From the NCBI RefSeq assembly GCF_004136575.1, contig NZ_NOIQ01000014.1:1-64000 (forward strand): a DNA stretch of 64,000 nt, read 5' to 3'. The DNA is from Rothia koreensis (GTDB lineage Bacteria > Actinomycetota > Actinomycetes > Actinomycetales > Micrococcaceae). The position numbers and the translations under genes were made by a program. The notes beneath the pieces were generated by a model that ran no database searches, was not told the origin of the DNA, and saw only the letters and a list, made by a program, of their open reading frames with translations. Positions 1-15,055 of the stretch are shown here, in pieces. How positions within the stretch are numbered: position 1 is the first letter of the stretch; every line of letters begins with the position of its first letter.

Positions 1-11
1 GTTGCTGAACT
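1..11. other. att core, left edge of copy 1
   Basis: GTTGCTGAACT opens the window and recurs at 8058 and 16115. The flank to its left is not visible, so this may be attL or another element-element junction. Confidence 0.6.
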
Positions 12-73
12 AATAGCTACCACCAAAGAACAACCGTACTTCCCTGCAATAGCAACGATGAGCACATTTTGGC

Positions 74-102
74 TACCCCTAAAATATGCCCATTTACCCC
101 TA
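74..102. repeat. Integrase arm-type sites, left arm (two TACCCCTA)
   Basis: TACCCCTA occurs at 74-81 and 95-102, in the non-coding strip between the att core and the integrase gene. The same octamer is paired near the other end of the element (7929, 7941). Two direct repeats on each side of the core are the layout expected for arm-binding sites of a lambda-type integrase. Function is inferred. Confidence 0.5.
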
Positions 103-111
103 GTAAGCGGG

Positions 112-1161
112 TCAACGTCTACGCATAGCTGACCCAATAGCAGACCGTGTAGCCTCGCCGTCATCCTCGAACAGGTGACCATACGTGTCGAGGGTGATCT
201 TCGCGCTCGAATGACGTAGGCGCTGCTGTACACGCTTCACATCGAGCCCCTGCTGAATCAACAGAGACGCATAATAGTGCCGCAGGTCGTGAAACCGGAG
301 CTTTCCGGTCGGCAAGCCGTCGACAGCCGCACGCGCACTCTTGAAATGAGCCTCGATCTGCGCGGGCGAAATACCCCGGCCAAGCCGACCCGGAACCACC
401 ATCGTCCACCCCGGCACCTGCTCCAAGTTCTCCCTCAACATCCCTGCCAGCTCCAGGGGTATCGGAATTGACGCCTTCGAGTCCGCAGTCTTCAACGGCA
501 CACCCCCATATTGGAGAGTCGGTCTCACGACGCCGTTCTCTAGGTCTACGTCCTGACGACGCAGCCCAGCCGCCTCCGCAATCCTCAGACCAGCAAACGC
601 CCCGAGCAGGACAGCCGACCTGGAATATTCCGGCATACCGTCATACAACGCCCACACCTGTTCTGTGGTGATGACATACGGCACCGACTTAGCTGGACCC
701 GGCGACGTCCGCCGCGAACACGGATTCCTTGCAAGGTACCCGTCATGCACGGCGTCTCCGAGAATCTGAGAGAGCCGGTTATGCAGCGCATAAATATAGG
801 ACCGCGAATAGCCCCGGTCGTGTAGCTGACCAACCCACTCGCGCACATCATCCGGTCGCAATGACGACAACCGCCGCGACCCAAGCATGCCCACGATGAC
901 CTTGCAATGAGTGACACCCATCTTCCGCGTACTAGGAGCATGGAGCGCATAGGACGATAACCACCGTTCGCACCATCGCTTGACCGTTACACGGCCTTTG
1001 AGCGGTTCGACCTCGCGCCCGGAGACTCTGGCGGCTATCTTTTCCTGGTACTTCTCTACAGCGTCCTGATAGGTCTTTGCAGTCGTCTCTCGCTGCTTGC
1101 CCTGGCGGTCGGTCCAGCGGACACGGTAGAGACCGTTCTTATCCTTCCGAGGTGTCGGCAT
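112..1161 (-). CDS. int: Tyrosine recombinase (phage integrase)
   Basis: This 349-residue site-specific recombinase integrates and excises the element. The N-terminal arm-binding part (residues 1-50) begins PTPRKDKNG. A SAM-like core-binding domain spans about 55-145. The catalytic domain carries R193 (AGLRIAE), K229, the HDLRH box with H291 and R294, H317 (RLRHSS) and the nucleophile Y327 (DTYGHLF), so all catalytic residues are present. The ATG at 1161 is chosen because GGAAG lies just upstream and family similarity starts there; a longer frame runs to 1302. The start overlaps the repressor end by 23 bp, so the two are probably co-transcribed. The gene ends about 110 bp from the att core, as is usual for integrases. 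Confidence 0.95.
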   Translation of the reverse strand: MPTPRKDKNGLYRVRWTDRQGKQRETTAKTYQDAVEKYQEKIAARVSGREVEPLKGRVTVKRWCERWLSSYALHAPSTRKMGVTHCKVIVGMLGSRRLSSLRPDDVREWVGQLHDRGYSRSYIYALHNRLSQILGDAVHDGYLARNPCSRRTSPGPAKSVPYVITTEQVWALYDGMPEYSRSAVLLGAFAGLRIAEAAGLRRQDVDLENGVVRPTLQYGGVPLKTADSKASIPIPLELAGMLRENLEQVPGWTMVVPGRLGRGISPAQIEAHFKSARAAVDGLPTGKLRFHDLRHYYASLLIQQGLDVKRVQQRLRHSSAKITLDTYGHLFEDDGEATRSAIGSAMRRR

Positions 1162-1666
1162 TGATCCGCTTCCAGCCCGGAGAAGCTGAATAGTCCGTGT
1201 GACCCCTCGTGACTGCGCTGTCGACAGTGGCCGAATCCAGTTGCCCTTGTCCGAAATCAGCGGCACGGCGCAGCGTATTCGGCCTGTCTGACTCAGGGGC
1301 ACGACTCAGGCAATCATTCACCGCAGACTGCAACCTCCCCCGCGCTTCCAGCAGGGAAGAAACACTGTCTTTCACTACCGTCCAATGGCGAGCAACCTCT
1401 AAATAGAGGTCCTGGACCTTTCTTGCGGGGCCAACGTCGGCAGGTATATCGAAGAAGTCCGACAGTTCCACCTTCAACAGTTTCGCGAGCTCTAGCGCCT
1501 CGACGAGACGCAATGACCTTTCGCCGTGCTCGATATTAAAAACTGTCGACGATGCCCACTTGAAGCCTCGATCCGACATCTCTTTAGCCAAGGTCTTTTG
1601 TGAGATTTCGCCTCGCAGTCGAGCGAGATTCTCACCAATCAGGGGATCTGTTGTCTGGGTGCTCAT
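1139..1666 (-). CDS. Cro/C1-type XRE repressor
   Basis: This 175-residue protein has an N-terminal XRE helix-turn-helix at about residues 10-73 (SQKTLAKEMSDRGF, then STVFNIEHGER), the fold of phage repressors. The remainder has no recognised domain and is helical and charged; no RecA-type cleavage site was identified. It is transcribed leftward, divergent from the excisionase gene, and its 3' end overlaps the integrase start. The likely role is to hold the element quiescent by binding the 1667-1802 intergenic region. The start at 1666 was preferred over an in-frame ATG at 1789, which would reach into the shared promoter region. Confidence 0.85.
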   Translation of the reverse strand: MSTQTTDPLIGENLARLRGEISQKTLAKEMSDRGFKWASSTVFNIEHGERSLRLVEALELAKLLKVELSDFFDIPADVGPARKVQDLYLEVARHWTVVKDSVSSLLEARGRLQSAVNDCLSRAPESDRPNTLRRAADFGQGQLDSATVDSAVTRGHTDYSASPGWKRINADTSEG

Positions 1667-1802
1667 GGAGTCGAGTCTACTGATCGAGAGGCGTTGGCGC
1701 TTGCGTTCCGATATCGATACTAATTGACAACTAGCGTACAGTCGTGATTCAGTATCACTACTGGTCCAGCACCGGACTACACAACTCAACTAGGAGTATC
1801 AA
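1667..1802. promoter_or_regulatory. Divergent repressor/excisionase control region
   Basis: This A/T-richer 136-bp strip separates leftward repressor and rightward excisionase genes. It contains TTGACA at 1724-1729, pointing right, with no strong -10 at ideal spacing. AGTATC-type hexamers recur on both strands and are possible operator halves. AGGAG sits seven bases before the excisionase ATG. By analogy with lysogeny switches it should hold the repressor's operators; this is inference. Confidence 0.55.
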
Positions 1803-2009
1803 ATGCATCAGAGCGAAAGCCCGCTCATCTCAATCAAGGACACGGCCCCGCTCGTCGGCAAGTCAGAAGCCAGCCTCAGGTGGGCAATCCACAACGGCAC
1901 CGCACCGCCCTCCGCGCTCATCATGGGACGCCGCGTCTTCCGTCGCGAACAAGTCCTCGAATGGATCGATCAGCAATTCGCAGAACAGAACGGACAGGAG
2001 ACCGCATGA
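1803..2009 (+). CDS. AlpA/MerR-type helix-turn-helix, probable excisionase
   Basis: This 68-residue protein has a winged-helix DNA-binding pattern: SIKDTAPLVGKSEASLRWAI, a wing, then GRRVFRREQVLEWIDQQ. That is the layout of phage excisionases and AlpA-like activators. It is the first gene of the rightward operon and lies opposite the repressor, the usual place for a recombination directionality factor. Its stop overlaps the next start (ATGA). It could instead be a transcriptional activator. Confidence 0.75.
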   Translation: MHQSESPLISIKDTAPLVGKSEASLRWAIHNGTAPPSALIMGRRVFRREQVLEWIDQQFAEQNGQETA

Positions 2010-2380
2010 GCACCCCCAGACACGAAAAAAGCGCCCTTCACACTGCACAGCTTGGCGGCAAAGACAGTGAGAAGGACGCCCACGAAACCACTCGCGAAAG
2101 AGTAGGAACTATGCCCAAGGCTACCATTCCCGCCCGCTTCCGTCAGGAGCACGAGGGCGAGGACGCTATCTTCCTCGCAAACGAACACACCGGCCGGTGG
2201 GTCGACGCCGAAGAGATCATCCTGCCCCACAACGGCACCGGCCTCACTCCACTGTTCAACCTCCAAGTCGGAGTCATCGAAGGCACTCTCCCCGAAATCA
2301 GGGAAGCAATCACCGAAGCCAGCAATTGGCTCCACCGCATCGAAGCGCAGCTGCCCGGAGGGACGGAGGTCAATCAATGA
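2006..2380 (+). CDS. Hypothetical protein of the replication operon
   Basis: This 124-residue protein is not recognised. ATG at 2006 overlaps the preceding stop and follows AGGAG. An internal ATG at 2111, also with AGGA before it, would give a 90-residue product starting PKATIPARF, which is where the sequence becomes more protein-like. The C-terminal half (RWVDAEEIILPHNGTG ... LPEIREAITEASNWLHRIEAQ) suggests a small alpha/beta domain ending in a helix. It is translationally coupled on both sides. Confidence 0.65.
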   Translation: MSTPRHEKSALHTAQLGGKDSEKDAHETTRERVGTMPKATIPARFRQEHEGEDAIFLANEHTGRWVDAEEIILPHNGTGLTPLFNLQVGVIEGTLPEIREAITEASNWLHRIEAQLPGGTEVNQ

Positions 2381-2760
2381 CCATCGACTTCCTTGCCAGT
2401 GTCCCGGCCACGATCGCAAACCATGCGCAGATGTGCCTCAGTAGCCCTGATGCCATCGTGCAGGGTGCGTACCTGACCGGGACCGTCATCGGGCAGGCCC
2501 AAGGGAAACAAGCTGTCCATGAGGCGCTGGAGACCGACGCACTGCATCGTGCGGAATCGTTCGCCACCGACCTCGGAGCGCGGCCGGCGTACCCGTGGGA
2601 GCGGCCCCACTGGGACCGGCGACGTCTCCGGCCGGAGCTGCCGGAATCCCTTACGGGGCGATGGCAGCCGAAACCGCAGCCGGTAGTAGATCAGTCCGGC
2701 CCGTGGCCGACTGTGATCCCACCGACTCATGAGCCGGTCCTACTGGCGGCAGCCGCCTAA
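2377..2760 (+). CDS. Hypothetical protein upstream of repA
   Basis: This 127-residue protein is not recognised. It starts at an ATGA overlap with the previous gene and has GGAGG about ten bases upstream. The N-terminal half looks helical; the C-terminal half is rich in Pro, Arg and Trp (RPAYPWERPHWDRRRLRPELPE) and is probably extended. It is followed by a hairpin and then the ATPase gene. Confidence 0.65.
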   Translation: MTIDFLASVPATIANHAQMCLSSPDAIVQGAYLTGTVIGQAQGKQAVHEALETDALHRAESFATDLGARPAYPWERPHWDRRRLRPELPESLTGRWQPKPQPVVDQSGPWPTVIPPTHEPVLLAAAA

Positions 2761-2776
2761 TCATCCCGTGTACAAG

Positions 2777-2809
2777 CCAGGCCGGGGACAAACATCGTCC
2801 CTGGCCTGG
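2777..2809 (+). terminator. Hairpin between the 127-residue gene and repA
   Basis: A 13-bp stem (CCAGGCCGGGGAC with GTCCCTGGCCTGG, one G-T pair) closes a seven-base loop. A short T-rich run (CCCTTTTCTC) follows some distance on. It could be a terminator, an attenuator or an RNA-processing hairpin controlling repA expression. Confidence 0.45.
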
Positions 2810-2860
2810 CACCACACACCCTTTTCTCTGTATCCCCTTCACGGGAAGGACAAGAATCTT

Positions 2861-4414
2861 TTGAACACATACGACGAAGCCCGAACCGAGCTGCGGGTCA
2901 CCTACGCCCACATGATTCAGCCCCACCGTCAACGGTGGCTCTGGGCACACGACGGAGCCGGCGTCATCCCACTCGGAACCGGGACCATAGCCGCCGGTAT
3001 CGGTGGCGAAGGAAAATCCACCTTCATGCTGGACCTGGCAGCGCAACTGACCCAGGGCACGCTTCCCGGTGATCTGTACGGGTCCAAAGAGAACGTAATC
3101 ATCTTCGGCCCCGAGGACGACTGGCCGACTGTAATGGTCCCGCGTCTGATGGCAGCAGGGGCTGACCTGTCACGTGTAGCCCAGGTCCAGGCCGCCACGA
3201 TCACGGAATCATTCACACGCGAACGGGAGTTGATCTTCCCGGTAGACCTCGGTCTGCTGCGTGAAGCCGTGAAGGAGACCGGGGCGCGGATGGTCATCAT
3301 CGACCCGGCCCCGAACCTCATGGACGGGGACATGAACAAGGTCCAAGACGTCCGCCGATCCTACGGCCCACTCATGGCCCTAGCCCAAGAACACGACCTA
3401 GCGATCATCCTGATCAACCATTTCGGCAAGGGCGCGGGCAACGTCGGAGCGAAGCTGTCAGGTTCGCACGCCTGGCGAGACCTCACCCGTTCCTACTTGG
3501 CCTTCGCATCCGACCCGGAAACCGGGGAACGAATCCTCACCCAGGATAAGAACAACTACGGGACCGGGCGCGGCTCGTGGAAGTTCGTTCTGGAATCGGT
3601 CGACGTACCGACTGAGGACGGGAACACGAATGTCGGCAAAGTCCGGTTCCTCGGTGCCTCAGAGGTCACGGTCGGGGAACTAATCAACCGGGATTCCCTG
3701 GCCGAGGAGGACCAAGAGGACCGCAACGCGGCCCAACAGTTCGTGTACGACTTCCTGGTCAATACCGAGGCCCAGGAGGCCAAGGCCGGTGCGGTAATCA
3801 AGGCCGGTCTCGCGGAGGGGTTTTCCACCAACGAGATCAAGGACGCACGCAGGCGTTCGAAGAGTCCGCGAATCCTCTCGGTCAAATCATCTTTCGGCGC
3901 TGGATGGGTTTGGCAGATCGACCCCGAAGGTGGCACCGAAAGTTCCCAAGGTGGCGAAGGTGGCGAAGGTGGCAGCACGTACGAGGTCGTGCCACCTTCC
4001 ACATCCGATACCCAAGGTGGCACGAAGGTGGCGTGTACTCAGGAAGTGCCACCTTCGCCACCTTCGGTCGAAACAGTGCCACCTTCGAGCACCGAGCCCG
4101 GAACCCACGAACCGCCCGAAGGTGTCACTCGAACACCCCAAGGTGTCGAAGGTGTCAAAGATGTCAGCGCACAAGAGCAAGTGACCCCTTCGAAGGTCAG
4201 TCCCGAAGGTGTCACCAAGGTGTCATGCACTCAGAACGTGACACCTTCGACCCCTTCGGGCGAAACAGTGACACCTTCGAGCGGTCCGGTGACCTGCACC
4301 AAGATGGACTGCACCCGAGACGCAGCCACCGGACACGAATGGTGCCAACACCACATCGATCTCAGACAACGCCGCCTCGACGTCGAGGCAAAAAGACAAG
4401 GAGACGCAGCGTGA
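2861..4414 (+). CDS. RepA/KaiC-like replicative ATPase
   Basis: This predicted 517-residue P-loop ATPase of the RecA-fold RepA/AAA_25 group is used as replication helicase by plasmids and satellites. Walker A is GIGGEGKST (residues 46-54). Walker B is MVIIDP (about 144-149). A sensor-like ILINHFGKG and SGSHAWRDLTRSYLAF follow. After residue about 355 comes a low-complexity tail whose DNA is a repeat field, then a possible Cys/His finger (CTKMDC ... EWCQHH). I chose TTG at 2861 because GGGAAGGA precedes it and the hairpin at 2777-2809 lies upstream; an in-frame ATG at 2729 overlaps the previous gene and adds 44 unlikely residues. It should drive autonomous replication of the excised element. 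Confidence 0.85.
   Translation: MNTYDEARTELRVTYAHMIQPHRQRWLWAHDGAGVIPLGTGTIAAGIGGEGKSTFMLDLAAQLTQGTLPGDLYGSKENVIIFGPEDDWPTVMVPRLMAAGADLSRVAQVQAATITESFTRERELIFPVDLGLLREAVKETGARMVIIDPAPNLMDGDMNKVQDVRRSYGPLMALAQEHDLAIILINHFGKGAGNVGAKLSGSHAWRDLTRSYLAFASDPETGERILTQDKNNYGTGRGSWKFVLESVDVPTEDGNTNVGKVRFLGASEVTVGELINRDSLAEEDQEDRNAAQQFVYDFLVNTEAQEAKAGAVIKAGLAEGFSTNEIKDARRRSKSPRILSVKSSFGAGWVWQIDPEGGTESSQGGEGGEGGSTYEVVPPSTSDTQGGTKVACTQEVPPSPPSVETVPPSSTEPGTHEPPEGVTRTPQGVEGVKDVSAQEQVTPSKVSPEGVTKVSCTQNVTPSTPSGETVTPSSGPVTCTKMDCTRDAATGHEWCQHHIDLRQRRLDVEAKRQGDAA
3926..4282 (+). repeat. Two-family iteron-like repeat field inside repA
   Basis: Two 165-bp segments (3926-4090 and 4118-4282) encode gaplessly alignable 55-residue stretches. 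The first carries ten octamers of AAGGTGGC (six direct, four inverted). The second carries seven of AAGGTGTC (five direct, two inverted) plus near variants. Within each segment all units, in either orientation, share that segment's version of the changed base pair. Dense iterons in or beside a rep gene are a common origin architecture; origin function here is inferred. Confidence 0.7.
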
Positions 4415-4605
4415 GACACGAACGCGAGAAAGACACCCGGATACGTGTCCGTGACTACACCTGGAACCCCCGCGAGGAAGCCACACGCGGTGTCGTCATC
4501 ATGCGCGGCCAATACATCCAAGCCTTCATCCCCTACCAGCACGTAGCCGCGTTCTCGGACCGGATGATCGATCTGCTCGAAACCTACGAAAACGAGAACC
4601 AATGA
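4411..4605 (+). CDS. Small hypothetical protein
   Basis: This 64-residue protein starts at GTG 4411, overlapping the ATPase stop, with AAGGAG eight bases before it. The sequence (RVRDYTWNPREEATRGVVIMRGQ ... then an amphipathic helix) suggests a compact beta-then-helix domain. No family recognised. Its stop overlaps the next ATG. Confidence 0.7.
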   Translation: MRHEREKDTRIRVRDYTWNPREEATRGVVIMRGQYIQAFIPYQHVAAFSDRMIDLLETYENENQ

Positions 4606-4769
4606 CCGGATACCACTGGAAGAAACCGACCAAGCAACCTGACCCCGCCACCCTGGTCGCGATCTTGTTGCAAGAGAATCGTCGCCTTCAACGCGAAAAC
4701 CACCGCCTCGAGCAGGAAAAACAATTTTGGCAATCCAGAGCTTGTTTCAGGCAAGGATGCCAGTCATGA
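4602..4769 (+). CDS. Very small coiled-coil protein
   Basis: This 55-residue frame, ATGA-coupled at both ends, has a central helix rich in Leu, Gln, Glu and Arg (LVAILLQENRRLQRENHRLE) that looks like a short leucine-zipper coiled coil, then a Cys-containing tail. Coupling to both neighbours is the main support. Function unknown; possibly a DNA-binding or assembly accessory. Confidence 0.6.
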   Translation: MTGYHWKKPTKQPDPATLVAILLQENRRLQRENHRLEQEKQFWQSRACFRQGCQS

Positions 4770-5068
4770 GGAAGGCAGAAGAAATGATAACCCCCGCAGA
4801 ATTACCAATCACTGTTTACCACAGAACCTACACTCTCGAAGCACCAGCGGAAGAAGGGCCAATCAAACTATCCCCAAGACAGTGGGGAACACTCTGCGGG
4901 CTCGTTTTCCAGCAACACGTCCCCGAGCCCGTAGAAGGAGCACCAGAAGCCGTGTGCACCGCATGCCGCTACGACTCTCTCGACCAGCACGGGCAACCGA
5001 CAGGGCAAATGAAAGCCGTAGGGCACACACGAGGCGAAGTCCGCGCACTCACCCTCGAGAGTAGATAA
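4766..5068 (+). CDS. Hypothetical protein with CxxC
   Basis: This 100-residue protein starts at the ATG overlapping the preceding TGA; an in-frame ATG at 4727 would overlap that gene by 43 bp. It contains a single CTAC motif and a charged, mostly soluble sequence (YHRTYTLEAPAEEGPIKLSP). No family recognised. It ends 14 bp before the scaffold-like gene, so it belongs to the same rightward operon. Confidence 0.65.
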   Translation: MRKAEEMITPAELPITVYHRTYTLEAPAEEGPIKLSPRQWGTLCGLVFQQHVPEPVEGAPEAVCTACRYDSLDQHGQPTGQMKAVGHTRGEVRALTLESR

Positions 5069-5082
5069 GGAGATAACGCATC

Positions 5083-5628
5083 ATGGCAAACACCGATTCA
5101 AACAACACCGAGGTCGAACAGAACGAAACGGCGAGACAGGCCGAAGCCGACCAGGCCGCTGACACCAGTCAGGAGCCCACCGAAGACCCAAGCACCACGG
5201 AAGACAACGCAGACACCGCCATGGAGCACCCAGGCGAGGATACGGCCGGCGACGACGGCCCGGACGACGAAGGCCAAGCATCGAAACTGCGAGCAGAAGC
5301 CACCAAATACCGCCGCCAGCTGCGCGAGACTCAAGCCCAATTGGAGACGATCACCAACCAACGCGAGACCCTCCTGCGCTCTTCCGTCGAAGCCCAGCTG
5401 CCCGAGCACCTGCCCGGAAAGTTGTTCTGGAAACTATCAGACGACCCCAAACAGTTCATGACCGAAGACGGCGACGTTGACAGCGAGAAGGTCGCTCAGA
5501 CGGCCACCGATATTGTCCAAGAGTTCGACCTAAAGCCCCGTGGACCGGTTGTCACAGCACAAGGACAACATAAGCAAGTGAAAATGCAGAATTCACTGGC
5601 AGACGCATTCAAGCCCAGGGACTTATAA
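5083..5628 (+). CDS. Acidic scaffold-like protein
   Basis: This 181-residue protein resembles phage capsid scaffolds in composition and layout. It has a very acidic disordered N-terminus (residues 1-65, many Asp, Glu and Thr), a coiled-coil helix at about 66-108 (KLRAEATKYRRQLRETQAQL), and a C-terminal part ending SLADAFKPRDL. AAGGAG precedes the ATG. It directly precedes the capsid gene, the usual position for a scaffold, which guides capsid-protein assembly. No protease signature is visible. The assignment rests on architecture and neighbourhood, not on recognised homology. Confidence 0.65.
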   Translation: MANTDSNNTEVEQNETARQAEADQAADTSQEPTEDPSTTEDNADTAMEHPGEDTAGDDGPDDEGQASKLRAEATKYRRQLRETQAQLETITNQRETLLRSSVEAQLPEHLPGKLFWKLSDDPKQFMTEDGDVDSEKVAQTATDIVQEFDLKPRGPVVTAQGQHKQVKMQNSLADAFKPRDL

Positions 5629-5645
5629 AAACCGAATAAATAGAT

Positions 5646-5830
5646 GCCCGGCCAAAGAAATGCTGTATAATAAACACTGTACGAGGCATTTCCGGCCGGG
5701 CGCCTACGAACCTCCGTACACGATCACCCCCAGGCGGGGTATCGCTGGAACGGCCAGGAGCCGCCGCGATTAGAAAACACTCAAGTTTCTAACGGGCGGC
5801 CCTACCTATATCGCCGTCCAGAAAGGTAGG
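5646..5830 (+). promoter_or_regulatory. Structured leader of the capsid gene
   Basis: Five consecutive inverted repeats fill this non-coding stretch. These are GCCCGGCC/GGCCGGGC (5646-5653 with 5694-5701, plus inner AAATGC/GCATTT); a CCCC/GGGG hairpin at 5722-5743; CTGG/CCAG at 5745-5757; TTAGAAA/TTTCTAA at 5770-5792 inside GCCGCC/GGCGGC; and CCTACC/GGTAGG (5801-5806 with 5825-5830). The last pairs with the ribosome-binding region AAAGGTAGG. A TATAAT-like hexamer sits in the first loop. It may be a promoter plus cis-acting RNA, or a packaging/non-coding RNA. Confidence 0.55.
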
Positions 5831-5838
5831 CACATCAC

Positions 5839-6711
5839 ATGGCTACCCCTAGCGAAAGCATCGAAACCTCAACCAAGGGCGCAGCAGCCTGGTCACCCGA
5901 CCGCACCGCATTCGCCCCAACCGACGCGATCCCAGAGGCCCTGATCCTCAACGCCACCACCGTCGTCGACACCAAAGCAGGAACCGACCGAGGCTCCGTC
6001 CTCGTCCCCTGGGTGGATGACTCCCCCGCAGCATTCAGCGACGAGGCCGCATACCTCAACCTCCAGGAACCGGCCCTGTCCCAGACACTGATCCACACCA
6101 AGAAGATCACCCAGATGATCTTCTTGTCCTCCGAGCTGTACCGCGAGAACGGCGGCGTCAACGCGCAGCTGATGTCCGACTCGTCCATGCGAGCCGTGAC
6201 CAAGGAAGCGAACAACGCCCTGATGTCACATACCGCGAGCGAGACTGTGCCGCTGACCGGCCTGGCAAACACCCCGGGCATCATCGACGGCGGCAACGTC
6301 ACTGACAAACTCGACCCGATCGCGGACGTCATCGCGCAGATCGAATCCAATGGCGGCACCGCCGGAATCGTTGTCGCACACCCGCTGGCCTGGGGGAAAC
6401 TGAGGAACCTGAAGTCAGGCAAAGACCTCAACTCCTCGTTGCTCGGTGCCGGAACCGAAGACATGGGCAAGTCCCTCTTCGGAGTCCCCGTCGTCACCTC
6501 ACCGGCTGTGGCCGAGGATGAGCTGGTCGTCATCGACCCGAGCGCGGTCCCGTCAGCTGTCTCGCCCGTCGAGGTTGCATCCTCCGATCAGGTGCTGTTC
6601 CACAGCGACTCGATCGCTCTGCGTGTGATCTTCCGTCTCGGCTGGGCGGTCATGCACCCGAAGCGACTGGGTAAGGTCACCGTCGCGAAGAAGGCAACGA
6701 CCACCAAGTAA
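5839..6711 (+). CDS. HK97-fold phage major capsid protein
   Basis: This 290-residue protein builds the shell of phage heads. Family features visible are the N-arm, the segment AALNLQEPALSQTLIHTKKITQMIFLSSEL characteristic of the E-loop/P-domain region in shorter form, the A-domain signature LANTPGI, and the C-terminal block DSIALRVIFRLGWAVMHPKRLGKVTV. It is near the low end of HK97-type lengths and lacks the long delta domain, consistent with use of a separate scaffold. AAGGTAGG precedes the ATG but can be sequestered by the leader. A strong terminator follows. No maturation protease or portal gene accompanies it, which is unusual. Confidence 0.9.
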   Translation: MATPSESIETSTKGAAAWSPDRTAFAPTDAIPEALILNATTVVDTKAGTDRGSVLVPWVDDSPAAFSDEAAYLNLQEPALSQTLIHTKKITQMIFLSSELYRENGGVNAQLMSDSSMRAVTKEANNALMSHTASETVPLTGLANTPGIIDGGNVTDKLDPIADVIAQIESNGGTAGIVVAHPLAWGKLRNLKSGKDLNSSLLGAGTEDMGKSLFGVPVVTSPAVAEDELVVIDPSAVPSAVSPVEVASSDQVLFHSDSIALRVIFRLGWAVMHPKRLGKVTVAKKATTTK

Positions 6712-6723
6712 GCCCCCTTGTCA

Positions 6724-6754
6724 GGCCGCGCCCCTCCACTCGAGGGGCGCGGCC
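6724..6754 (+). terminator. Terminator after the capsid gene
   Basis: A perfect 12-bp stem, GGCCGCGCCCCT with AGGGGCGCGGCC, closes a seven-base loop 12 bp after the capsid stop. There is no long T run, as is common in high-G+C genomes. Confidence 0.8.
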
Positions 6755-6983
6755 TCCATCGTGTCCAGGTCCAGTGGGCGCAGGCCCCAGGGGGCATCCG
6801 GTCCCCAGCGCCCTGCGGCGCCCCTCCCGGGCGTTGATAGGTCCCCCCGGGCTTTTCAGGACCACAGGGGCCGGGGTGGATTTTGTGGCGTTTGGTTCGT
6901 GTTGCCGAGGGCGCTGGTGGCGGTCAGAGCTGACATTTTTGTGCTTTGGGCTGCGCTCAGGTCGAATTCATTGTTGGTCTTAC

Positions 6984-6993
6984 TGTAACGTTA
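6984..6993. promoter_or_regulatory. Palindromic operator candidate before the zinc-ribbon gene
   Basis: GTAACGTTAC is a perfect 10-bp palindrome ending five bases before the ATG. It is preceded by TACTGT, a possible -10. The transcript would be nearly leaderless and a protein bound here would block it. Confidence 0.4.
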
Positions 6994-6998
6994 CGGTC

Positions 6999-7454
6999 AT
7001 GAGAACAGACGCATGCCCCCTCTGCGGGCACCTCTTCACCACTGACCGGCGTGCAGTACCGGAGCAAGTGGTTATCCGTGAGTCTGAGAAGCGCTCCTGG
7101 CGTGGCAGGAAGACACGCAGGGCCGTGGTGCCTGTCTGTGTTGAGTGCTTGTCAGAGCGTCGACAGCGGCCCTTGTTGGAGAACTGGCCGGGTGTGGTGG
7201 GTGTTGAGTTCCCGCAGTTCACCGATGGGTACATTCCGGGCGATTGTGAACAATGCGGGACGCCGTGTCTGGTGCGACCTAACAAGAAGCGTATACATGT
7301 CTATTGCTCTGAGCGGTGCCGGGTGGCATTGTACGCAGCGAGTGTTCCCAGAACTGTAACGGAGTGTTCCACGTGTGGTGCTGAGGTTGTCGGACGGAAG
7401 GGACGTCGTTACTGCTCTAATGCTTGTCGGCAGAAGGCTTACAGGGCGAGGTAG
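6999..7454 (+). CDS. Multi-zinc-ribbon protein
   Basis: This 151-residue protein is built from CxxC pairs: CPLCGH, CVEC, CEQCGTPC, CSERC, CSTCGAE and a C-terminal YCSNACRQKAYRAR motif common in small actinobacterial and phage zinc-finger proteins. It probably binds two or three zinc ions and nucleic acid, but its role is unknown. The ATG at 6999 is taken because the cysteine pattern starts there; the upstream in-frame extension is not protein-like. It has its own promoter region after the capsid terminator, and its last 38 bp overlap a convergent small gene. Confidence 0.75.
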   Translation: MRTDACPLCGHLFTTDRRAVPEQVVIRESEKRSWRGRKTRRAVVPVCVECLSERRQRPLLENWPGVVGVEFPQFTDGYIPGDCEQCGTPCLVRPNKKRIHVYCSERCRVALYAASVPRTVTECSTCGAEVVGRKGRRYCSNACRQKAYRAR

Positions 7455-7605
7455 CAAGACCGATCAGCGTCCGCACTGTTATGACACCGGCCAACACGAC
7501 GGTCAGTGCCGCTATTATGACGGTCAGCCACACGGGCTGATGAGTTGCGCAGGACAGTGCAGTCATGACTGCACCGAACGTTATAGCGGTGGTCTTGTTT
7601 TTCAT
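7417..7605 (-). CDS. Small membrane protein, possibly holin-like
   Basis: This 62-residue protein has two hydrophobic stretches (about residues 6-20 and 28-50), a basic start and a hydrophilic C-terminus. AAGGAG lies six bases before its ATG. Small two-helix proteins in phage right arms are often holins, but no family is recognised and no lysin is nearby, so function is open. It runs leftward, convergent with the zinc-ribbon gene. Confidence 0.55.
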   Translation of the reverse strand: MKNKTTAITFGAVMTALSCATHQPVWLTVIIAALTVVLAGVITVRTLIGLATSPCKPSADKH

Positions 7606-7667
7606 GGTTGACTCCTTCATGATTGGAAGGACCAGGGAGCCGAGTGGTGGCTCGACTCCCCAGACCC

Positions 7668-7766
7668 TTAGCCCTTGGGTTCGCGGAGGTCTCGGATAAG
7701 CCCGATGACTTCTCGTGCGATCTTGAGGACCAGGAGGGTTGCGGACAGGATAACTATTATCGTCAC
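7668..7766 (-). CDS. Tiny single-pass membrane peptide
   Basis: This is a 32-residue frame with GTG start (GGAAGG eight bases upstream). A hydrophobic helix (TIIVILSATLLVLKI) is followed by a charged amphipathic tail ending LREPKG. It lies upstream of the 62-residue membrane gene on the same strand, so the two may form a small operon. GTG at 7772 is an alternative start. Confidence 0.4.
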   Translation of the reverse strand: MTIIVILSATLLVLKIAREVIGLIRDLREPKG

Positions 7767-7790
7767 TACCACTCCCTTCCATTGAGTACC

Positions 7791-7829
7791 CCGGCCGGTT
7801 CAGGTGTTTCCTGGACCGGCCGGAGTTTT
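7791..7829 (+). terminator. Rho-independent terminator in the right arm
   Basis: A 14-bp stem with one mismatch (CCGGCCGGTTCAGG with CCTGGACCGGCCGG) and loop TGTTT is followed by AGTTTTT. It faces right and would insulate the att region and integrase from upstream transcription. Confidence 0.7.
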
Positions 7830-7853
7830 TCGTGGCGGCCCGGAAAAGTTCTT

Positions 7854-7865
7854 AACCGATCGGTT
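7854..7865. promoter_or_regulatory. Palindrome AACCGATCGGTT
   Basis: This perfect 12-bp palindrome lies upstream of the leftward small membrane genes. At 7896-7910 a second one, CTCGTGA-T-TCACGAG, follows. Either may bind a dimeric regulator or an accessory recombination protein. Confidence 0.3.
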
Positions 7866-7928
7866 GAGAAGGGTCCGGTGAGCACCCTCGCGGGAATCCT
7901 CGTGATTCACGAGGGTTTGGTGAGGTGT

Positions 7929-7948
7929 TACCCCTACTTCTACCCCTA
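7929..7948. repeat. Integrase arm-type sites, right arm (two TACCCCTA)
   Basis: TACCCCTA occurs at 7929-7936 and 7941-7948, about 110-130 bp left of the core at 8058. These partner the pair on the other side of the core at 8131 and 8152. Confidence 0.5.
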
Positions 7949-8057
7949 GCGTGCCTCAAGAACCACCAAATCTCCCCCACCATGTACAACACAATGTCAC
8001 GGACAGAACCACCGAAAACACGGGGCAACTACCAAACTCAACCACATCACGCGGCTA

Positions 8058-8068
8058 GTTGCTGAACT
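8058..8068. other. att core between the two copies (attP-like junction)
   Basis: GTTGCTGAACT is flanked on the left by the element's right end and on the right by its left end. This is the arrangement of a circular-form attP. The preceding bases match those before the core at 16115, and the following bases match those after position 11. Confidence 0.8.
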
Positions 8069-8130
8069 AATAGCTACCACCAAAGAACAACCGTACTTCC
8101 CTGCAATAGCAACGATGAGCACATTTTGGC

Positions 8131-8159
8131 TACCCCTAAAATATGCCCATTTACCCCTA
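8131..8159. repeat. Arm-type sites, left arm of copy 2
   Basis: TACCCCTA at 8131-8138 and 8152-8159, the twin of 74-102. Together with 7929-7948 they complete an attP-like region around 8058. Confidence 0.5.
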
Positions 8160-8168
8160 GTAAGCGGG

Positions 8169-9218
8169 TCAACGTCTACGCATAGCTGACCCAATAGCAG
8201 ACCGTGTAGCCTCGCCGTCATCCTCGAACAGGTGACCATACGTGTCGAGGGTGATCTTCGCGCTCGAATGACGTAGGCGCTGCTGTACACGCTTCACATC
8301 GAGCCCCTGCTGAATCAACAGAGACGCATAATAGTGCCGCAGGTCGTGAAACCGGAGCTTTCCGGTCGGCAAGCCGTCGACAGCCGCACGCGCACTCTTG
8401 AAATGAGCCTCGATCTGCGCGGGCGAAATACCCCGGCCAAGCCGACCCGGAACCACCATCGTCCACCCCGGCACCTGCTCCAAGTTCTCCCTCAACATCC
8501 CTGCCAGCTCCAGGGGTATCGGAATTGACGCCTTCGAGTCCGCAGTCTTCAACGGCACACCCCCATATTGGAGAGTCGGTCTCACGACGCCGTTCTCTAG
8601 GTCTACGTCCTGACGACGCAGCCCAGCCGCCTCCGCAATCCTCAGACCAGCAAACGCCCCGAGCAGGACAGCCGACCTGGAATATTCCGGCATACCGTCA
8701 TACAACGCCCACACCTGTTCTGTGGTGATGACATACGGCACCGACTTAGCTGGACCCGGCGACGTCCGCCGCGAACACGGATTCCTTGCAAGGTACCCGT
8801 CATGCACGGCGTCTCCGAGAATCTGAGAGAGCCGGTTATGCAGCGCATAAATATAGGACCGCGAATAGCCCCGGTCGTGTAGCTGACCAACCCACTCGCG
8901 CACATCATCCGGTCGCAATGACGACAACCGCCGCGACCCAAGCATGCCCACGATGACCTTGCAATGAGTGACACCCATCTTCCGCGTACTAGGAGCATGG
9001 AGCGCATAGGACGATAACCACCGTTCGCACCATCGCTTGACCGTTACACGGCCTTTGAGCGGTTCGACCTCGCGCCCGGAGACTCTGGCGGCTATCTTTT
9101 CCTGGTACTTCTCTACAGCGTCCTGATAGGTCTTTGCAGTCGTCTCTCGCTGCTTGCCCTGGCGGTCGGTCCAGCGGACACGGTAGAGACCGTTCTTATC
9201 CTTCCGAGGTGTCGGCAT
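8169..9218 (-). CDS. int: Tyrosine recombinase (copy 2)
   Basis: Identical in sequence to the integrase at 112-1161, with all catalytic residues intact. Both copies appear functional, so excision of one or both units should be possible. Confidence 0.95.
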   Translation of the reverse strand: MPTPRKDKNGLYRVRWTDRQGKQRETTAKTYQDAVEKYQEKIAARVSGREVEPLKGRVTVKRWCERWLSSYALHAPSTRKMGVTHCKVIVGMLGSRRLSSLRPDDVREWVGQLHDRGYSRSYIYALHNRLSQILGDAVHDGYLARNPCSRRTSPGPAKSVPYVITTEQVWALYDGMPEYSRSAVLLGAFAGLRIAEAAGLRRQDVDLENGVVRPTLQYGGVPLKTADSKASIPIPLELAGMLRENLEQVPGWTMVVPGRLGRGISPAQIEAHFKSARAAVDGLPTGKLRFHDLRHYYASLLIQQGLDVKRVQQRLRHSSAKITLDTYGHLFEDDGEATRSAIGSAMRRR

Positions 9219-9723
9219 TGATCCGCTTCCAGCCCGGAGAAGCTGAATAGTCCGTGTGACCCCTCGTGACTGCGCTGTCGACAGTGGCCGAATCCAGTTG
9301 CCCTTGTCCGAAATCAGCGGCACGGCGCAGCGTATTCGGCCTGTCTGACTCAGGGGCACGACTCAGGCAATCATTCACCGCAGACTGCAACCTCCCCCGC
9401 GCTTCCAGCAGGGAAGAAACACTGTCTTTCACTACCGTCCAATGGCGAGCAACCTCTAAATAGAGGTCCTGGACCTTTCTTGCGGGGCCAACGTCGGCAG
9501 GTATATCGAAGAAGTCCGACAGTTCCACCTTCAACAGTTTCGCGAGCTCTAGCGCCTCGACGAGACGCAATGACCTTTCGCCGTGCTCGATATTAAAAAC
9601 TGTCGACGATGCCCACTTGAAGCCTCGATCCGACATCTCTTTAGCCAAGGTCTTTTGTGAGATTTCGCCTCGCAGTCGAGCGAGATTCTCACCAATCAGG
9701 GGATCTGTTGTCTGGGTGCTCAT
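9196..9723 (-). CDS. Cro/C1-type XRE repressor (copy 2)
   Basis: Identical to the repressor at 1139-1666. Two copies double the repressor dose, which would be expected to reinforce immunity to the same element. Confidence 0.85.
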   Translation of the reverse strand: MSTQTTDPLIGENLARLRGEISQKTLAKEMSDRGFKWASSTVFNIEHGERSLRLVEALELAKLLKVELSDFFDIPADVGPARKVQDLYLEVARHWTVVKDSVSSLLEARGRLQSAVNDCLSRAPESDRPNTLRRAADFGQGQLDSATVDSAVTRGHTDYSASPGWKRINADTSEG

Positions 9724-9859
9724 GGAGTCGAGTCTACTGATCGAGAGGCGTTGGCGCTTGCGTTCCGATATCGATACTAATTGACAACTAGCGTACAGTC
9801 GTGATTCAGTATCACTACTGGTCCAGCACCGGACTACACAACTCAACTAGGAGTATCAA
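9724..9859. promoter_or_regulatory. Divergent repressor/excisionase control region (copy 2)
   Basis: Same sequence as 1667-1802, with TTGACA at 9781-9786. Confidence 0.55.
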
Positions 9860-10066
9860 ATGCATCAGAGCGAAAGCCCGCTCATCTCAATCAAGGACAC
9901 GGCCCCGCTCGTCGGCAAGTCAGAAGCCAGCCTCAGGTGGGCAATCCACAACGGCACCGCACCGCCCTCCGCGCTCATCATGGGACGCCGCGTCTTCCGT
10001 CGCGAACAAGTCCTCGAATGGATCGATCAGCAATTCGCAGAACAGAACGGACAGGAGACCGCATGA
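9860..10066 (+). CDS. Probable excisionase (copy 2)
   Basis: Identical to the 68-residue helix-turn-helix protein at 1803-2009. Confidence 0.75.
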   Translation: MHQSESPLISIKDTAPLVGKSEASLRWAIHNGTAPPSALIMGRRVFRREQVLEWIDQQFAEQNGQETA

Positions 10067-10437
10067 GCACCCCCAGACACGAAAAAAGCGCCCTTCACAC
10101 TGCACAGCTTGGCGGCAAAGACAGTGAGAAGGACGCCCACGAAACCACTCGCGAAAGAGTAGGAACTATGCCCAAGGCTACCATTCCCGCCCGCTTCCGT
10201 CAGGAGCACGAGGGCGAGGACGCTATCTTCCTCGCAAACGAACACACCGGCCGGTGGGTCGACGCCGAAGAGATCATCCTGCCCCACAACGGCACCGGCC
10301 TCACTCCACTGTTCAACCTCCAAGTCGGAGTCATCGAAGGCACTCTCCCCGAAATCAGGGAAGCAATCACCGAAGCCAGCAATTGGCTCCACCGCATCGA
10401 AGCGCAGCTGCCCGGAGGGACGGAGGTCAATCAATGA
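10063..10437 (+). CDS. Hypothetical protein (copy 2)
   Basis: Identical to the 124-residue product at 2006-2380; the alternative internal start is at 10168. Confidence 0.65.
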   Translation: MSTPRHEKSALHTAQLGGKDSEKDAHETTRERVGTMPKATIPARFRQEHEGEDAIFLANEHTGRWVDAEEIILPHNGTGLTPLFNLQVGVIEGTLPEIREAITEASNWLHRIEAQLPGGTEVNQ

Positions 10438-10817
10438 CCATCGACTTCCTTGCCAGTGTCCCGGCCACGATCGCAAACCATGCGCAGATGTGCCTCAGTA
10501 GCCCTGATGCCATCGTGCAGGGTGCGTACCTGACCGGGACCGTCATCGGGCAGGCCCAAGGGAAACAAGCTGTCCATGAGGCGCTGGAGACCGACGCACT
10601 GCATCGTGCGGAATCGTTCGCCACCGACCTCGGAGCGCGGCCGGCGTACCCGTGGGAGCGGCCCCACTGGGACCGGCGACGTCTCCGGCCGGAGCTGCCG
10701 GAATCCCTTACGGGGCGATGGCAGCCGAAACCGCAGCCGGTAGTAGATCAGTCCGGCCCGTGGCCGACTGTGATCCCACCGACTCATGAGCCGGTCCTAC
10801 TGGCGGCAGCCGCCTAA
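10434..10817 (+). CDS. Hypothetical protein upstream of repA (copy 2)
   Basis: Identical to the 127-residue product at 2377-2760. Confidence 0.65.
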   Translation: MTIDFLASVPATIANHAQMCLSSPDAIVQGAYLTGTVIGQAQGKQAVHEALETDALHRAESFATDLGARPAYPWERPHWDRRRLRPELPESLTGRWQPKPQPVVDQSGPWPTVIPPTHEPVLLAAAA

Positions 10818-10833
10818 TCATCCCGTGTACAAG

Positions 10834-10866
10834 CCAGGCCGGGGACAAACATCGTCCCTGGCCTGG
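10834..10866 (+). terminator. Hairpin upstream of repA (copy 2)
   Basis: Same 13-bp stem as 2777-2809. Confidence 0.45.
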
Positions 10867-10917
10867 CACCACACACCCTTTTCTCTGTATCCCCTTCACG
10901 GGAAGGACAAGAATCTT

Positions 10918-12471
10918 TTGAACACATACGACGAAGCCCGAACCGAGCTGCGGGTCACCTACGCCCACATGATTCAGCCCCACCGTCAACGGTGGCTCTG
11001 GGCACACGACGGAGCCGGCGTCATCCCACTCGGAACCGGGACCATAGCCGCCGGTATCGGTGGCGAAGGAAAATCCACCTTCATGCTGGACCTGGCAGCG
11101 CAACTGACCCAGGGCACGCTTCCCGGTGATCTGTACGGGTCCAAAGAGAACGTAATCATCTTCGGCCCCGAGGACGACTGGCCGACTGTAATGGTCCCGC
11201 GTCTGATGGCAGCAGGGGCTGACCTGTCACGTGTAGCCCAGGTCCAGGCCGCCACGATCACGGAATCATTCACACGCGAACGGGAGTTGATCTTCCCGGT
11301 AGACCTCGGTCTGCTGCGTGAAGCCGTGAAGGAGACCGGGGCGCGGATGGTCATCATCGACCCGGCCCCGAACCTCATGGACGGGGACATGAACAAGGTC
11401 CAAGACGTCCGCCGATCCTACGGCCCACTCATGGCCCTAGCCCAAGAACACGACCTAGCGATCATCCTGATCAACCATTTCGGCAAGGGCGCGGGCAACG
11501 TCGGAGCGAAGCTGTCAGGTTCGCACGCCTGGCGAGACCTCACCCGTTCCTACTTGGCCTTCGCATCCGACCCGGAAACCGGGGAACGAATCCTCACCCA
11601 GGATAAGAACAACTACGGGACCGGGCGCGGCTCGTGGAAGTTCGTTCTGGAATCGGTCGACGTACCGACTGAGGACGGGAACACGAATGTCGGCAAAGTC
11701 CGGTTCCTCGGTGCCTCAGAGGTCACGGTCGGGGAACTAATCAACCGGGATTCCCTGGCCGAGGAGGACCAAGAGGACCGCAACGCGGCCCAACAGTTCG
11801 TGTACGACTTCCTGGTCAATACCGAGGCCCAGGAGGCCAAGGCCGGTGCGGTAATCAAGGCCGGTCTCGCGGAGGGGTTTTCCACCAACGAGATCAAGGA
11901 CGCACGCAGGCGTTCGAAGAGTCCGCGAATCCTCTCGGTCAAATCATCTTTCGGCGCTGGATGGGTTTGGCAGATCGACCCCGAAGGTGGCACCGAAAGT
12001 TCCCAAGGTGGCGAAGGTGGCGAAGGTGGCAGCACGTACGAGGTCGTGCCACCTTCCACATCCGATACCCAAGGTGGCACGAAGGTGGCGTGTACTCAGG
12101 AAGTGCCACCTTCGCCACCTTCGGTCGAAACAGTGCCACCTTCGAGCACCGAGCCCGGAACCCACGAACCGCCCGAAGGTGTCACTCGAACACCCCAAGG
12201 TGTCGAAGGTGTCAAAGATGTCAGCGCACAAGAGCAAGTGACCCCTTCGAAGGTCAGTCCCGAAGGTGTCACCAAGGTGTCATGCACTCAGAACGTGACA
12301 CCTTCGACCCCTTCGGGCGAAACAGTGACACCTTCGAGCGGTCCGGTGACCTGCACCAAGATGGACTGCACCCGAGACGCAGCCACCGGACACGAATGGT
12401 GCCAACACCACATCGATCTCAGACAACGCCGCCTCGACGTCGAGGCAAAAAGACAAGGAGACGCAGCGTGA
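10918..12471 (+). CDS. RepA/KaiC-like replicative ATPase (copy 2)
   Basis: Identical to 2861-4414, including Walker motifs and the repeat-encoded tail. TTG is preferred as start; ATG at 10786 is the longer alternative. Confidence 0.85.
   Translation: MNTYDEARTELRVTYAHMIQPHRQRWLWAHDGAGVIPLGTGTIAAGIGGEGKSTFMLDLAAQLTQGTLPGDLYGSKENVIIFGPEDDWPTVMVPRLMAAGADLSRVAQVQAATITESFTRERELIFPVDLGLLREAVKETGARMVIIDPAPNLMDGDMNKVQDVRRSYGPLMALAQEHDLAIILINHFGKGAGNVGAKLSGSHAWRDLTRSYLAFASDPETGERILTQDKNNYGTGRGSWKFVLESVDVPTEDGNTNVGKVRFLGASEVTVGELINRDSLAEEDQEDRNAAQQFVYDFLVNTEAQEAKAGAVIKAGLAEGFSTNEIKDARRRSKSPRILSVKSSFGAGWVWQIDPEGGTESSQGGEGGEGGSTYEVVPPSTSDTQGGTKVACTQEVPPSPPSVETVPPSSTEPGTHEPPEGVTRTPQGVEGVKDVSAQEQVTPSKVSPEGVTKVSCTQNVTPSTPSGETVTPSSGPVTCTKMDCTRDAATGHEWCQHHIDLRQRRLDVEAKRQGDAA
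11983..12339 (+). repeat. Two-family iteron-like repeat field (copy 2)
   Basis: Same arrangement as 3926-4282, with segments at 11983-12147 and 12175-12339. The absence of differences between copies of so repetitive a tract argues that the duplication is recent or artefactual. Confidence 0.7.
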
Positions 12472-12662
12472 GACACGAACGCGAGAAAGACACCCGGATA
12501 CGTGTCCGTGACTACACCTGGAACCCCCGCGAGGAAGCCACACGCGGTGTCGTCATCATGCGCGGCCAATACATCCAAGCCTTCATCCCCTACCAGCACG
12601 TAGCCGCGTTCTCGGACCGGATGATCGATCTGCTCGAAACCTACGAAAACGAGAACCAATGA
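12468..12662 (+). CDS. Small hypothetical protein (copy 2)
   Basis: Identical to the 64-residue product at 4411-4605, GTG start. Confidence 0.7.
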   Translation: MRHEREKDTRIRVRDYTWNPREEATRGVVIMRGQYIQAFIPYQHVAAFSDRMIDLLETYENENQ

Positions 12663-12826
12663 CCGGATACCACTGGAAGAAACCGACCAAGCAACCTGAC
12701 CCCGCCACCCTGGTCGCGATCTTGTTGCAAGAGAATCGTCGCCTTCAACGCGAAAACCACCGCCTCGAGCAGGAAAAACAATTTTGGCAATCCAGAGCTT
12801 GTTTCAGGCAAGGATGCCAGTCATGA
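12659..12826 (+). CDS. Very small coiled-coil protein (copy 2)
   Basis: Identical to the 55-residue product at 4602-4769. Confidence 0.6.
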   Translation: MTGYHWKKPTKQPDPATLVAILLQENRRLQRENHRLEQEKQFWQSRACFRQGCQS

Positions 12827-13125
12827 GGAAGGCAGAAGAAATGATAACCCCCGCAGAATTACCAATCACTGTTTACCACAGAACCTACACTCTCGAAGCA
12901 CCAGCGGAAGAAGGGCCAATCAAACTATCCCCAAGACAGTGGGGAACACTCTGCGGGCTCGTTTTCCAGCAACACGTCCCCGAGCCCGTAGAAGGAGCAC
13001 CAGAAGCCGTGTGCACCGCATGCCGCTACGACTCTCTCGACCAGCACGGGCAACCGACAGGGCAAATGAAAGCCGTAGGGCACACACGAGGCGAAGTCCG
13101 CGCACTCACCCTCGAGAGTAGATAA
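12823..13125 (+). CDS. Hypothetical protein with CxxC (copy 2)
   Basis: Identical to the 100-residue product at 4766-5068. Confidence 0.65.
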   Translation: MRKAEEMITPAELPITVYHRTYTLEAPAEEGPIKLSPRQWGTLCGLVFQQHVPEPVEGAPEAVCTACRYDSLDQHGQPTGQMKAVGHTRGEVRALTLESR

Positions 13126-13139
13126 GGAGATAACGCATC

Positions 13140-13685
13140 ATGGCAAACACCGATTCAAACAACACCGAGGTCGAACAGAACGAAACGGCGAGACAGGCCG
13201 AAGCCGACCAGGCCGCTGACACCAGTCAGGAGCCCACCGAAGACCCAAGCACCACGGAAGACAACGCAGACACCGCCATGGAGCACCCAGGCGAGGATAC
13301 GGCCGGCGACGACGGCCCGGACGACGAAGGCCAAGCATCGAAACTGCGAGCAGAAGCCACCAAATACCGCCGCCAGCTGCGCGAGACTCAAGCCCAATTG
13401 GAGACGATCACCAACCAACGCGAGACCCTCCTGCGCTCTTCCGTCGAAGCCCAGCTGCCCGAGCACCTGCCCGGAAAGTTGTTCTGGAAACTATCAGACG
13501 ACCCCAAACAGTTCATGACCGAAGACGGCGACGTTGACAGCGAGAAGGTCGCTCAGACGGCCACCGATATTGTCCAAGAGTTCGACCTAAAGCCCCGTGG
13601 ACCGGTTGTCACAGCACAAGGACAACATAAGCAAGTGAAAATGCAGAATTCACTGGCAGACGCATTCAAGCCCAGGGACTTATAA
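13140..13685 (+). CDS. Acidic scaffold-like protein (copy 2)
   Basis: Identical to the product of 5083-5628. Confidence 0.65.
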   Translation: MANTDSNNTEVEQNETARQAEADQAADTSQEPTEDPSTTEDNADTAMEHPGEDTAGDDGPDDEGQASKLRAEATKYRRQLRETQAQLETITNQRETLLRSSVEAQLPEHLPGKLFWKLSDDPKQFMTEDGDVDSEKVAQTATDIVQEFDLKPRGPVVTAQGQHKQVKMQNSLADAFKPRDL

Positions 13686-13702
13686 AAACCGAATAAATAG
13701 AT

Positions 13703-13887
13703 GCCCGGCCAAAGAAATGCTGTATAATAAACACTGTACGAGGCATTTCCGGCCGGGCGCCTACGAACCTCCGTACACGATCACCCCCAGGCGGGGTATC
13801 GCTGGAACGGCCAGGAGCCGCCGCGATTAGAAAACACTCAAGTTTCTAACGGGCGGCCCTACCTATATCGCCGTCCAGAAAGGTAGG
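13703..13887 (+). promoter_or_regulatory. Structured leader of the capsid gene (copy 2)
   Basis: Same chain of five inverted repeats as 5646-5830. Confidence 0.55.
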
Positions 13888-13895
13888 CACATCAC

Positions 13896-14768: not shown

Positions 14769-14780
14769 GCCCCCTTGTCA

Positions 14781-15050: not shown

Positions 15051-15055
15051 CGGTC

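Follow-up and report, generated by a model that had tools for sequence, protein, structure and literature searches.

Two arrays of octamers differing at one base pair within the replication gene of a virus-like element of Rothia koreensis, and an initiator residue that may read that base pair

At the start of the 64,000-nucleotide stretch of Rothia koreensis DNA analysed here, which we call the window, lies a small, virus-like DNA element whose arrays of repeated sites sit within its own replication gene, rep, and the comparison of these arrays with those of related elements suggests that one amino acid of the Rep protein, residue 372, reads base 7 of the repeated octamer. Our best reading of these sequences is an origin-like iteron module inside the initiator gene, here with two specificities and perhaps caught in the middle of a switch from one to the other. 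We consider it probable that this explanation holds as a whole, namely that the winged helix of Rep reads the octamers through residue 372, with array 1 as its own target and array 2 being an array of the Asn type. The main limitation is the comparative nature of all the evidence. The features concerned are listed here by window position.

1 to 11, plus strand: att core GTTGCTGAACT, repeated at 8058-8068 and 16115-16125
112 to 1302, minus strand: tyrosine integrase gene, by protein-family match
2861 to 4414, plus strand: rep gene, a RecA-fold helicase-like ATPase with a C-terminal winged helix (AAA_25, E=6e-23)
2918 to 3436, plus strand: ATPase (AAA_25) domain of Rep, by family match
3704 to 3919, plus strand: predicted winged-helix domain, the proposed iteron reader (AlphaFold full-length and domain models)
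3842 to 3844, plus strand: codon of Asp372 (numbered by the longest ORF), the recognition-helix residue that predicts iteron position 7
3927 to 4085, plus strand: array 1, made up of ten AAGGTGGC units (6 direct, 4 inverted); of the Asp type and the predicted target of the element's own Rep
4119 to 4277, plus strand: array 2, seven AAGGTGTC, one AAGATGTC and two AAGGGGTC units in the same layout as array 1; predicted Asn-type specificity
4300 to 4411, plus strand: Cys/His-rich Rep tail after the arrays, with similar tails in several relatives (by inspection)
4411 to 4605, plus strand: small gene after rep, with similar ORFs after rep in Rothia halotolerans and Kocuria marina (by inspection)
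5083 to 5628, plus strand: scaffold-like gene, weak match (PHROG head scaffolding, E=7e-5)
5839 to 6711, plus strand: HK97-type major capsid protein gene (Phage_capsid, E=9e-16)
11984 to 12334, plus strand: arrays 1 and 2 as they recur in the second element copy, which is identical to the first

The mobile element is 8,057 bp long and is present as two exact tandem copies spanning 1-16125, the identical run reaching 8,068 bp with the 11-bp att core included; the contig begins exactly on an att core, and the tandem arrangement may reflect either a real tandem integration or an effect of assembly. A gene at 16112-17659 on the minus strand, with a product resembling a subtilisin-type protease (by inspection), has its final codons overlapped by the core, which suggests its 3' end as the insertion site of the element. 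Ten proteins were scanned from one element copy, and six of them had a function-naming match: the tyrosine integrase, an HTH repressor, the AAA_25 ATPase, the weakly matched scaffold-like protein, the HK97 major capsid protein and an HNH endonuclease, with weak matches or none in the other four. The integrase and the repressor-like HTH ORF (HTH_3 below the Pfam cut-off; PHROG repressor, E=1.6e-7) are on the minus strand and rep is on the plus strand. The small gene at 4411-4605 had neither a Pfam nor a PHROG match, and an Rfam scan of positions 1-8200 returned no match at gathering scores.

The longest open reading frame of rep starts at 2729, and we prefer the TTG start at 2861 because of a GGAAGG upstream of it (by inspection). 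A profile built from the relatives has its better score with RadA (1.6e-7) and also matches the RSF1010 RepA helicase (PDB 1g8y, 3.4e-5), so it points to the wider RecA-like group as a whole; the full-length AlphaFold model also finds RecA-fold matches, at a low overall confidence (mean pLDDT 59). The likeness to RSF1010 RepA lies in the sequence of the ATPase part; RSF1010 RepA is not known to have an iteron-binding winged helix, and the RSF1010 iterons are bound by RepC. The second domain of the window's protein is predicted to consist of three helices and a wing, to follow the ATPase and to end directly before array 1, and its separate model reaches a mean pLDDT of 83.5; its best PDB folds are forkhead winged helices, at a weak E of 0.011, with MarR-type folds lower and none below 0.001. 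In both structure models residue 372 lies in the third helix of this predicted winged helix, the recognition helix, where it is the residue preceding an Ala-Arg pair.

The ten exact AAGGTGGC and seven exact AAGGTGTC octamers (the latter 5 direct and 2 inverted) were confirmed where the original prediction, made from the letters of the window, had placed them. Array 2 contains in addition three degenerate units, AAGATGTC at 4158 and AAGGGGTC at 4183 and 4249 on the minus strand, and because all three carry the T as well, the switch extends to 10/10 units. The arrays lie in two 168-bp copies at 3923 and 4115, offset by 192 start to start and 75% identical, and in a fixed, ungapped register every one of the ten units has its counterpart: position 7 differs in 10/10 units, the other unit positions in 3/70 and the positions outside the units in 29/85, a placement of differences with a chance probability of 1.7e-10. 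The pattern AAGGTGKC matches 36 times in the window vs 3.8 expected, a number reached by 0/100 shuffles, and all but two of these matches, those at 19017 and 54107, fall within the arrays or within the exact second element copy at +8057 (34/36). Neither AAGGTGGC nor AAGGTGTC was found elsewhere in the 8,057-bp element, and across the host genome the exact 17-base sequence formed by two neighbouring units was found 8 times, each time in the arrays or their second copy. The GC content through the arrays is 0.56-0.62, with the nearest dip, to 0.49, at 4726-4875, and no AT-rich tract is evident next to the arrays in the GC profile around them; the gap of 24 bp between the aligned segments is itself GC-rich (17/24, by inspection). 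A 233-aa open frame at 3904-4605, in another reading frame, crosses both arrays into the next small gene, and it is probably a by-product of stop-free repeats.

The uniform switch had been read as turning Gly into Val in direct units and Pro into Thr in inverted ones, and these two changes are indeed found, in 5 and 4 units, respectively; a third change, Ala to Ser in one direct unit that lies in another frame (4025/4217), had been missed. The same base pair is thus switched on both strands and in three codon contexts, which indicates that it is constrained as DNA, and this strand and codon evidence supports the earlier proposal of a constraint at the DNA level, with two distinct binding-site arrays, rather than selection on the protein. 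It could still be argued that the repeats encode a low-complexity linker peptide and that their uniformity in DNA is a by-product of repeat expansion, given that the 9-bp period keeps the frame and that orientation-linked variants in the loci L025, L040 and L170 could serve to avoid Leu, Trp or Cys codons (by inspection). Against this, a single base pair changes alike on either strand with three different amino acid outcomes, and the spacers have diverged, so the units were not recently copied as a block. On the strand and codon evidence we rejected protein selection as the cause, and we regard it as extremely improbable.

A third state of the same array is found in Rothia halotolerans (L012; also G009/L015), the closest relative of the full gene found, with 84% identity over 341 residues. 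It has a single array, whose ten units keep the order, orientation and spacing of those in the window, and position 7 is C in 10/10 of them (nine exact AAGGTGCC and one TAGGTGCC). The three arrays, ungapped, therefore carry G, T and C at position 7, each in 10/10 units, with few other differences within the units: array 1 differs from the R. halotolerans array at 1/70 of the other unit positions and 35/85 spacer positions, and array 2 at 4/70 and 38/85. Spacer identity between arrays 1 and 2 is 54/81 by pairwise alignment and 56/85 in the fixed register, and that between array 1 and R. halotolerans is 55/79 and 50/85, respectively. The divergence within the window's gene is therefore about that between the arrays of different elements, which points to array 2 as either an old duplicate or an acquisition from a related element.

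Relatives of Rep were found in 14/395 genomes of the family and 13/396 of the order (E 1e-30), 5/394 of the class (1e-40) and 13/398 of the family of the genome G750 (1e-55), in samples that overlap and include the window's own genome. We examined 46 tails of rep, that of the window and those of 45 relatives, with three duplicates dropped, and in 25/46, the window included, the 3' end holds a repeated octamer beyond at least 99% of 200 shuffles; by this exact-match test the other 21/46 had no significant repeated octamer. The iterons vary by element. In some they read AAGGTG, then G, T or C, then C; in three loci (two of genus g5, the genus of Kocuria marina, and one viral contig) they are CATAGATCC or CATGGATCC, with a variant in L165; and in others they are GAGCCAACTG, TGCACCAACTG and more. 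In the tails of L025, L040 and L170 the iteron variants track orientation and not array (e.g., GAGCCAACTG direct and GAGCCGACTG inverted), which may be explained by codon choice. Protein searches gave 84 phage and 12 plasmid records below 60% identity, and distant DNA searches with 3600-4414 had no match in plasmids or phages. Forty-three Microbacterium records matched, and the two phages examined both have arrays at the 3' end of a gene annotated as primase/helicase, GTGTGACA in BabyDotz and GAGTGACA in Fransoyer (L249, L250). In a Mycobacterium phage, a Streptomyces plasmid and pCG2 no significant array was found in the stretch tested, and in pCG2 ACATACAT repeats are located after the gene. 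Among viral contigs, a 17-base pattern gave at least 120 stretches, none of which encodes a relative at E 1e-5, and a 19-base pattern gave 94; tblastn over both pattern sets returned the L169 contig again (as L219), L243 and one weak match (L055). L243 provides a second rep gene with two iteron families in its tail (4423-4626), four exact AAGGGAGC followed by five exact AAGGTGCC.

The relation between the residue and the base was tabulated for the 13 elements, the window included, that have at least four exact AAGGTGNC octamers, giving 14 arrays because the window has two. The original prediction had proposed aligning homologous genes to see whether each array keeps its own uniform octamer, and this comparison bore it out: 89/91 exact AAGGTGNC octamers agree with the majority base of the array they belong to, the arrays differing in which base this is, and the two exceptions are one T each among the C units of L024 and L163. 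Octamers with one mismatch are less uniform, L020 having two with C and L024 three with G vs the majority, and off-base octamers of this kind occur in L015, L020, L023, L024, L029 and array 2. By majority base, residue 372 predicts position 7 in these elements: Asp with G (the window, L029, L254), Asn with T (L017, L020, L022, L023), Lys with C (L015, L024) and His also with C (L018, L019, L163, L169). Array 1 and the arrays of the 12 relatives all fit residue 372 of their own gene, and array 2 is the sole array of the 14 that does not.

Among 258 variable columns, residue 372 is the best predictor of the base, with a normalised score of 0.88, all 1.53 bits and 0/2000 permutations reaching it; the exact label chance is 3.3e-5 per column, or about 0.009 when multiplied by 258. 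Residue 119, in the ATPase, also accounts for all 1.53 bits, with nine residue types, a score of 0.75 and a permutation p of 0.001, and residue 85 has a permutation p of 0.0045. Ten of the elements, among them the close kin L018 and L019, were used to notice the rule, which was written down before L163, L169 and L254 were read, and these three fit it by majority: L163 His with C (4 C, 1 T), L169 His with C (7/7) and L254 Asp with G (5/5). A tree of the ATPase requires at least 6 changes of the base and at least 7 of the residue, and phylogenetically independent pairs agree in 2/2, 2/2 and 3/3 cases, too few for significance. Left out of the table were L031 (Asp; three exact units with G, G and T), L166 (Asp; two degenerate units, both G, by inspection), L255 (Lys; AAGATTCC), L258 (Asn; another iteron) and L243, the last for its divergent domain: it has Arg, which would fit the C of its five exact AAGGTGCC, yet its AAGGGAGC array has G there. 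The copy at L019, a homologue in the genome G065, has one in-frame TAA and so may be broken. A published recognition code pairs Asp with C, Asn with A and Lys or His with G, as given in the part of the source available (PMC12264921), and, read on the complementary strand, these pairs match the residue-base pairs found here.

Identity along the genes was also compared block by block. In L169 and L170, two viral contigs from one metagenome, it is 75-100% per 20-residue block over the first 260 residues, 10-45% through the winged helix and array, and high again downstream (1012/1299 aligned bases); between the window and Kocuria marina (L016) there is a like drop, from 75-100% to 0-65%. From these drops, winged helix and array appear to move together, swapped between elements as a cassette. 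This bears on the alternative that the sites serve a transcriptional regulator or a partition protein and not Rep, for which one could invoke the small genes beside rep that have no assigned function; given that base 7 covaries with the recognition-helix residue of Rep itself and that, from one close relative to another, the winged helix changes along with the array, we hold that alternative to be very improbable. The ATPase and small DNA-binding proteins had originally been put forward as the binders of the two arrays, and of this proposal the part concerning the ATPase fits the present evidence, which points to its winged helix, with only one array as the matching target.

In the mechanism that we favour, the 3' end of rep would double as an iteron array, and the winged helix encoded just upstream of it would bind the octamers, with residue 372 contacting base pair 7 on the complementary strand (Asp-C, Asn-A, Lys/His-G). 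The window's protein has Asp372 and is thus expected to read array 1. By using array 1 (AAGGTGGC), this Asp372 Rep would load the helicase and start the replication of the excised element; that such an array is both the site of Rep binding and of helicase loading is suggested by the parallel with lambda O, SaPI Rep and PLE RepA. Array 2 (AAGGTGTC) would be a complete Asn-type array, derived from duplication or from recombination with a related element and retained beside array 1, and it might be read by the Asn-type Rep of another element or bound weakly, as an auxiliary site, by the element's own Rep. A donor element for array 2 was sought and none was found, and a resident second Rep reading it was considered and set aside, as a search of the host genome (E 0.01) gave only a 24% match (E=1.6e-4). 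More tentatively, and we would call this doubtful at present, the initiator of this family may shift its origin specificity by one residue of the recognition helix together with a uniform one-base change of the iterons, with the element of the window as an intermediate that has both old and new arrays and could cross without losing replication.

Two other accounts of array 2 have to be weighed. One Rep might read both arrays, array 1 strongly for initiation and array 2 more weakly as an accessory or inhibitory site for copy control, as with RctB, the initiator of Vibrio chromosome 2, for which two kinds of site are described in the available text of PMC5395669. Array 2 has kept its layout and seven perfect units, and the host genome, where that 24% match is the best found, has no second Rep of the family, so that no resident Asn-type reader is known; in the other elements, however, T-type arrays pair with Asn in 4/4 cases, and, by inspection, a second array is present in the window alone among the 13 AAGGTGNC elements, so that two tiers are not a general feature of the group. 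We judge this account possible, without giving it our preference. Array 2 might, on the other hand, be left over from a former specificity of the Asn type, or have arisen by chance recombination, and have no present function. A second change in 3/10 of its units, vs 0/10 in array 1, would agree with this, as would the exchange of winged helix and array between elements; but all three changed units still have their T, and T-bearing units with one mismatch make up 3/9 in L022 and 5/11 in L023. We considered a decay of array 2 and did not conclude it, given that these T-type arrays are about as degenerate; array 2 being no more degenerate than they are, nothing shows it to be idle, and we think a functionless relic somewhat unlikely. 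The preferred reading thus remains an Asp-type Rep with array 1 as its target and a retained Asn-type array beside it.

As in iteron-type origins, an array of short repeats of one sequence lies near an initiator gene, and the repeats are specific to each element and matched to its own initiator (array 1 and the arrays of the 12 relatives). The lambda O protein serves as a loader of the helicase and has its binding domain at the N-terminus, whereas here we find a helicase-like ATPase with a C-terminal winged helix and two iteron specificities in one gene. The lambdoid O/ori system is nevertheless similar in having its iterons inside the initiator gene, where they encode part of the initiator, and the number of iteron units varies between phages, according to the available part of PMC7466680. 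In SaPI Rep and the PICIs, as far as described in the parts available of PMC7581432 and PMC6092414, the initiator is also a helicase, whose C-terminal domain recognises iterons at the gene's 3' end, as is proposed here for Rep, and the origins of E. coli PICIs have two iteron sets; those origins are, however, just downstream of the gene, their two sets flanking an AT-rich region, whereas both arrays of the window are within the coding region of rep, and the PICI helicases belong to DUF927 and D5-type families and the window's Rep to AAA_25.

The PLE RepA offers another likeness, since its DNA-binding domain and origin covary and are swapped as a module, and the nuclease Odn of ICP1 mimics the specificity of RepA and thereby selects for iteron change in PLE (PMC8263062, in the part available). 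It differs in its RepA_N domain and in its iterons of about 30 bp in a noncoding origin, and neither a single-residue code nor a two-specificity origin was found in the accessible text of PMC8263062. The IncU plasmid RA3 has a repB-oriV whose minimal oriV includes one putative iteron, a truncated repeat, that lies within the initiator gene at its 3' end (PMC9455977, from the text available). RepAM of the AICEs was considered as a precedent, and the word "iteron" is absent from the main text of PMC3218068. No paper on an in-gene or two-specificity iteron origin of this kind, on a residue-iteron code or on this type of element was among the literature matches listed, which cover titles and the beginnings of abstracts and leave most subscription papers outside their scope. 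Iterons within the gene, those downstream of it in PICIs and the swapping of modules are, of course, already known; as far as the searches show, and among the matches listed, what appears to be new is the rule linking a single residue to a single base in this Rep family, the switch of all ten units alike and the gene with two specificities.

It is difficult to see by what single steps an initiator and its site, present in ten or more copies, could change specificity together, and here the residue, the sites and an element with both types of site are all within one short gene. If the rule is true, the incompatibility between such elements would be predictable, and one could also predict which Rep, of a helper or of a rival, would be able to use the origin of a given element or to attack it.
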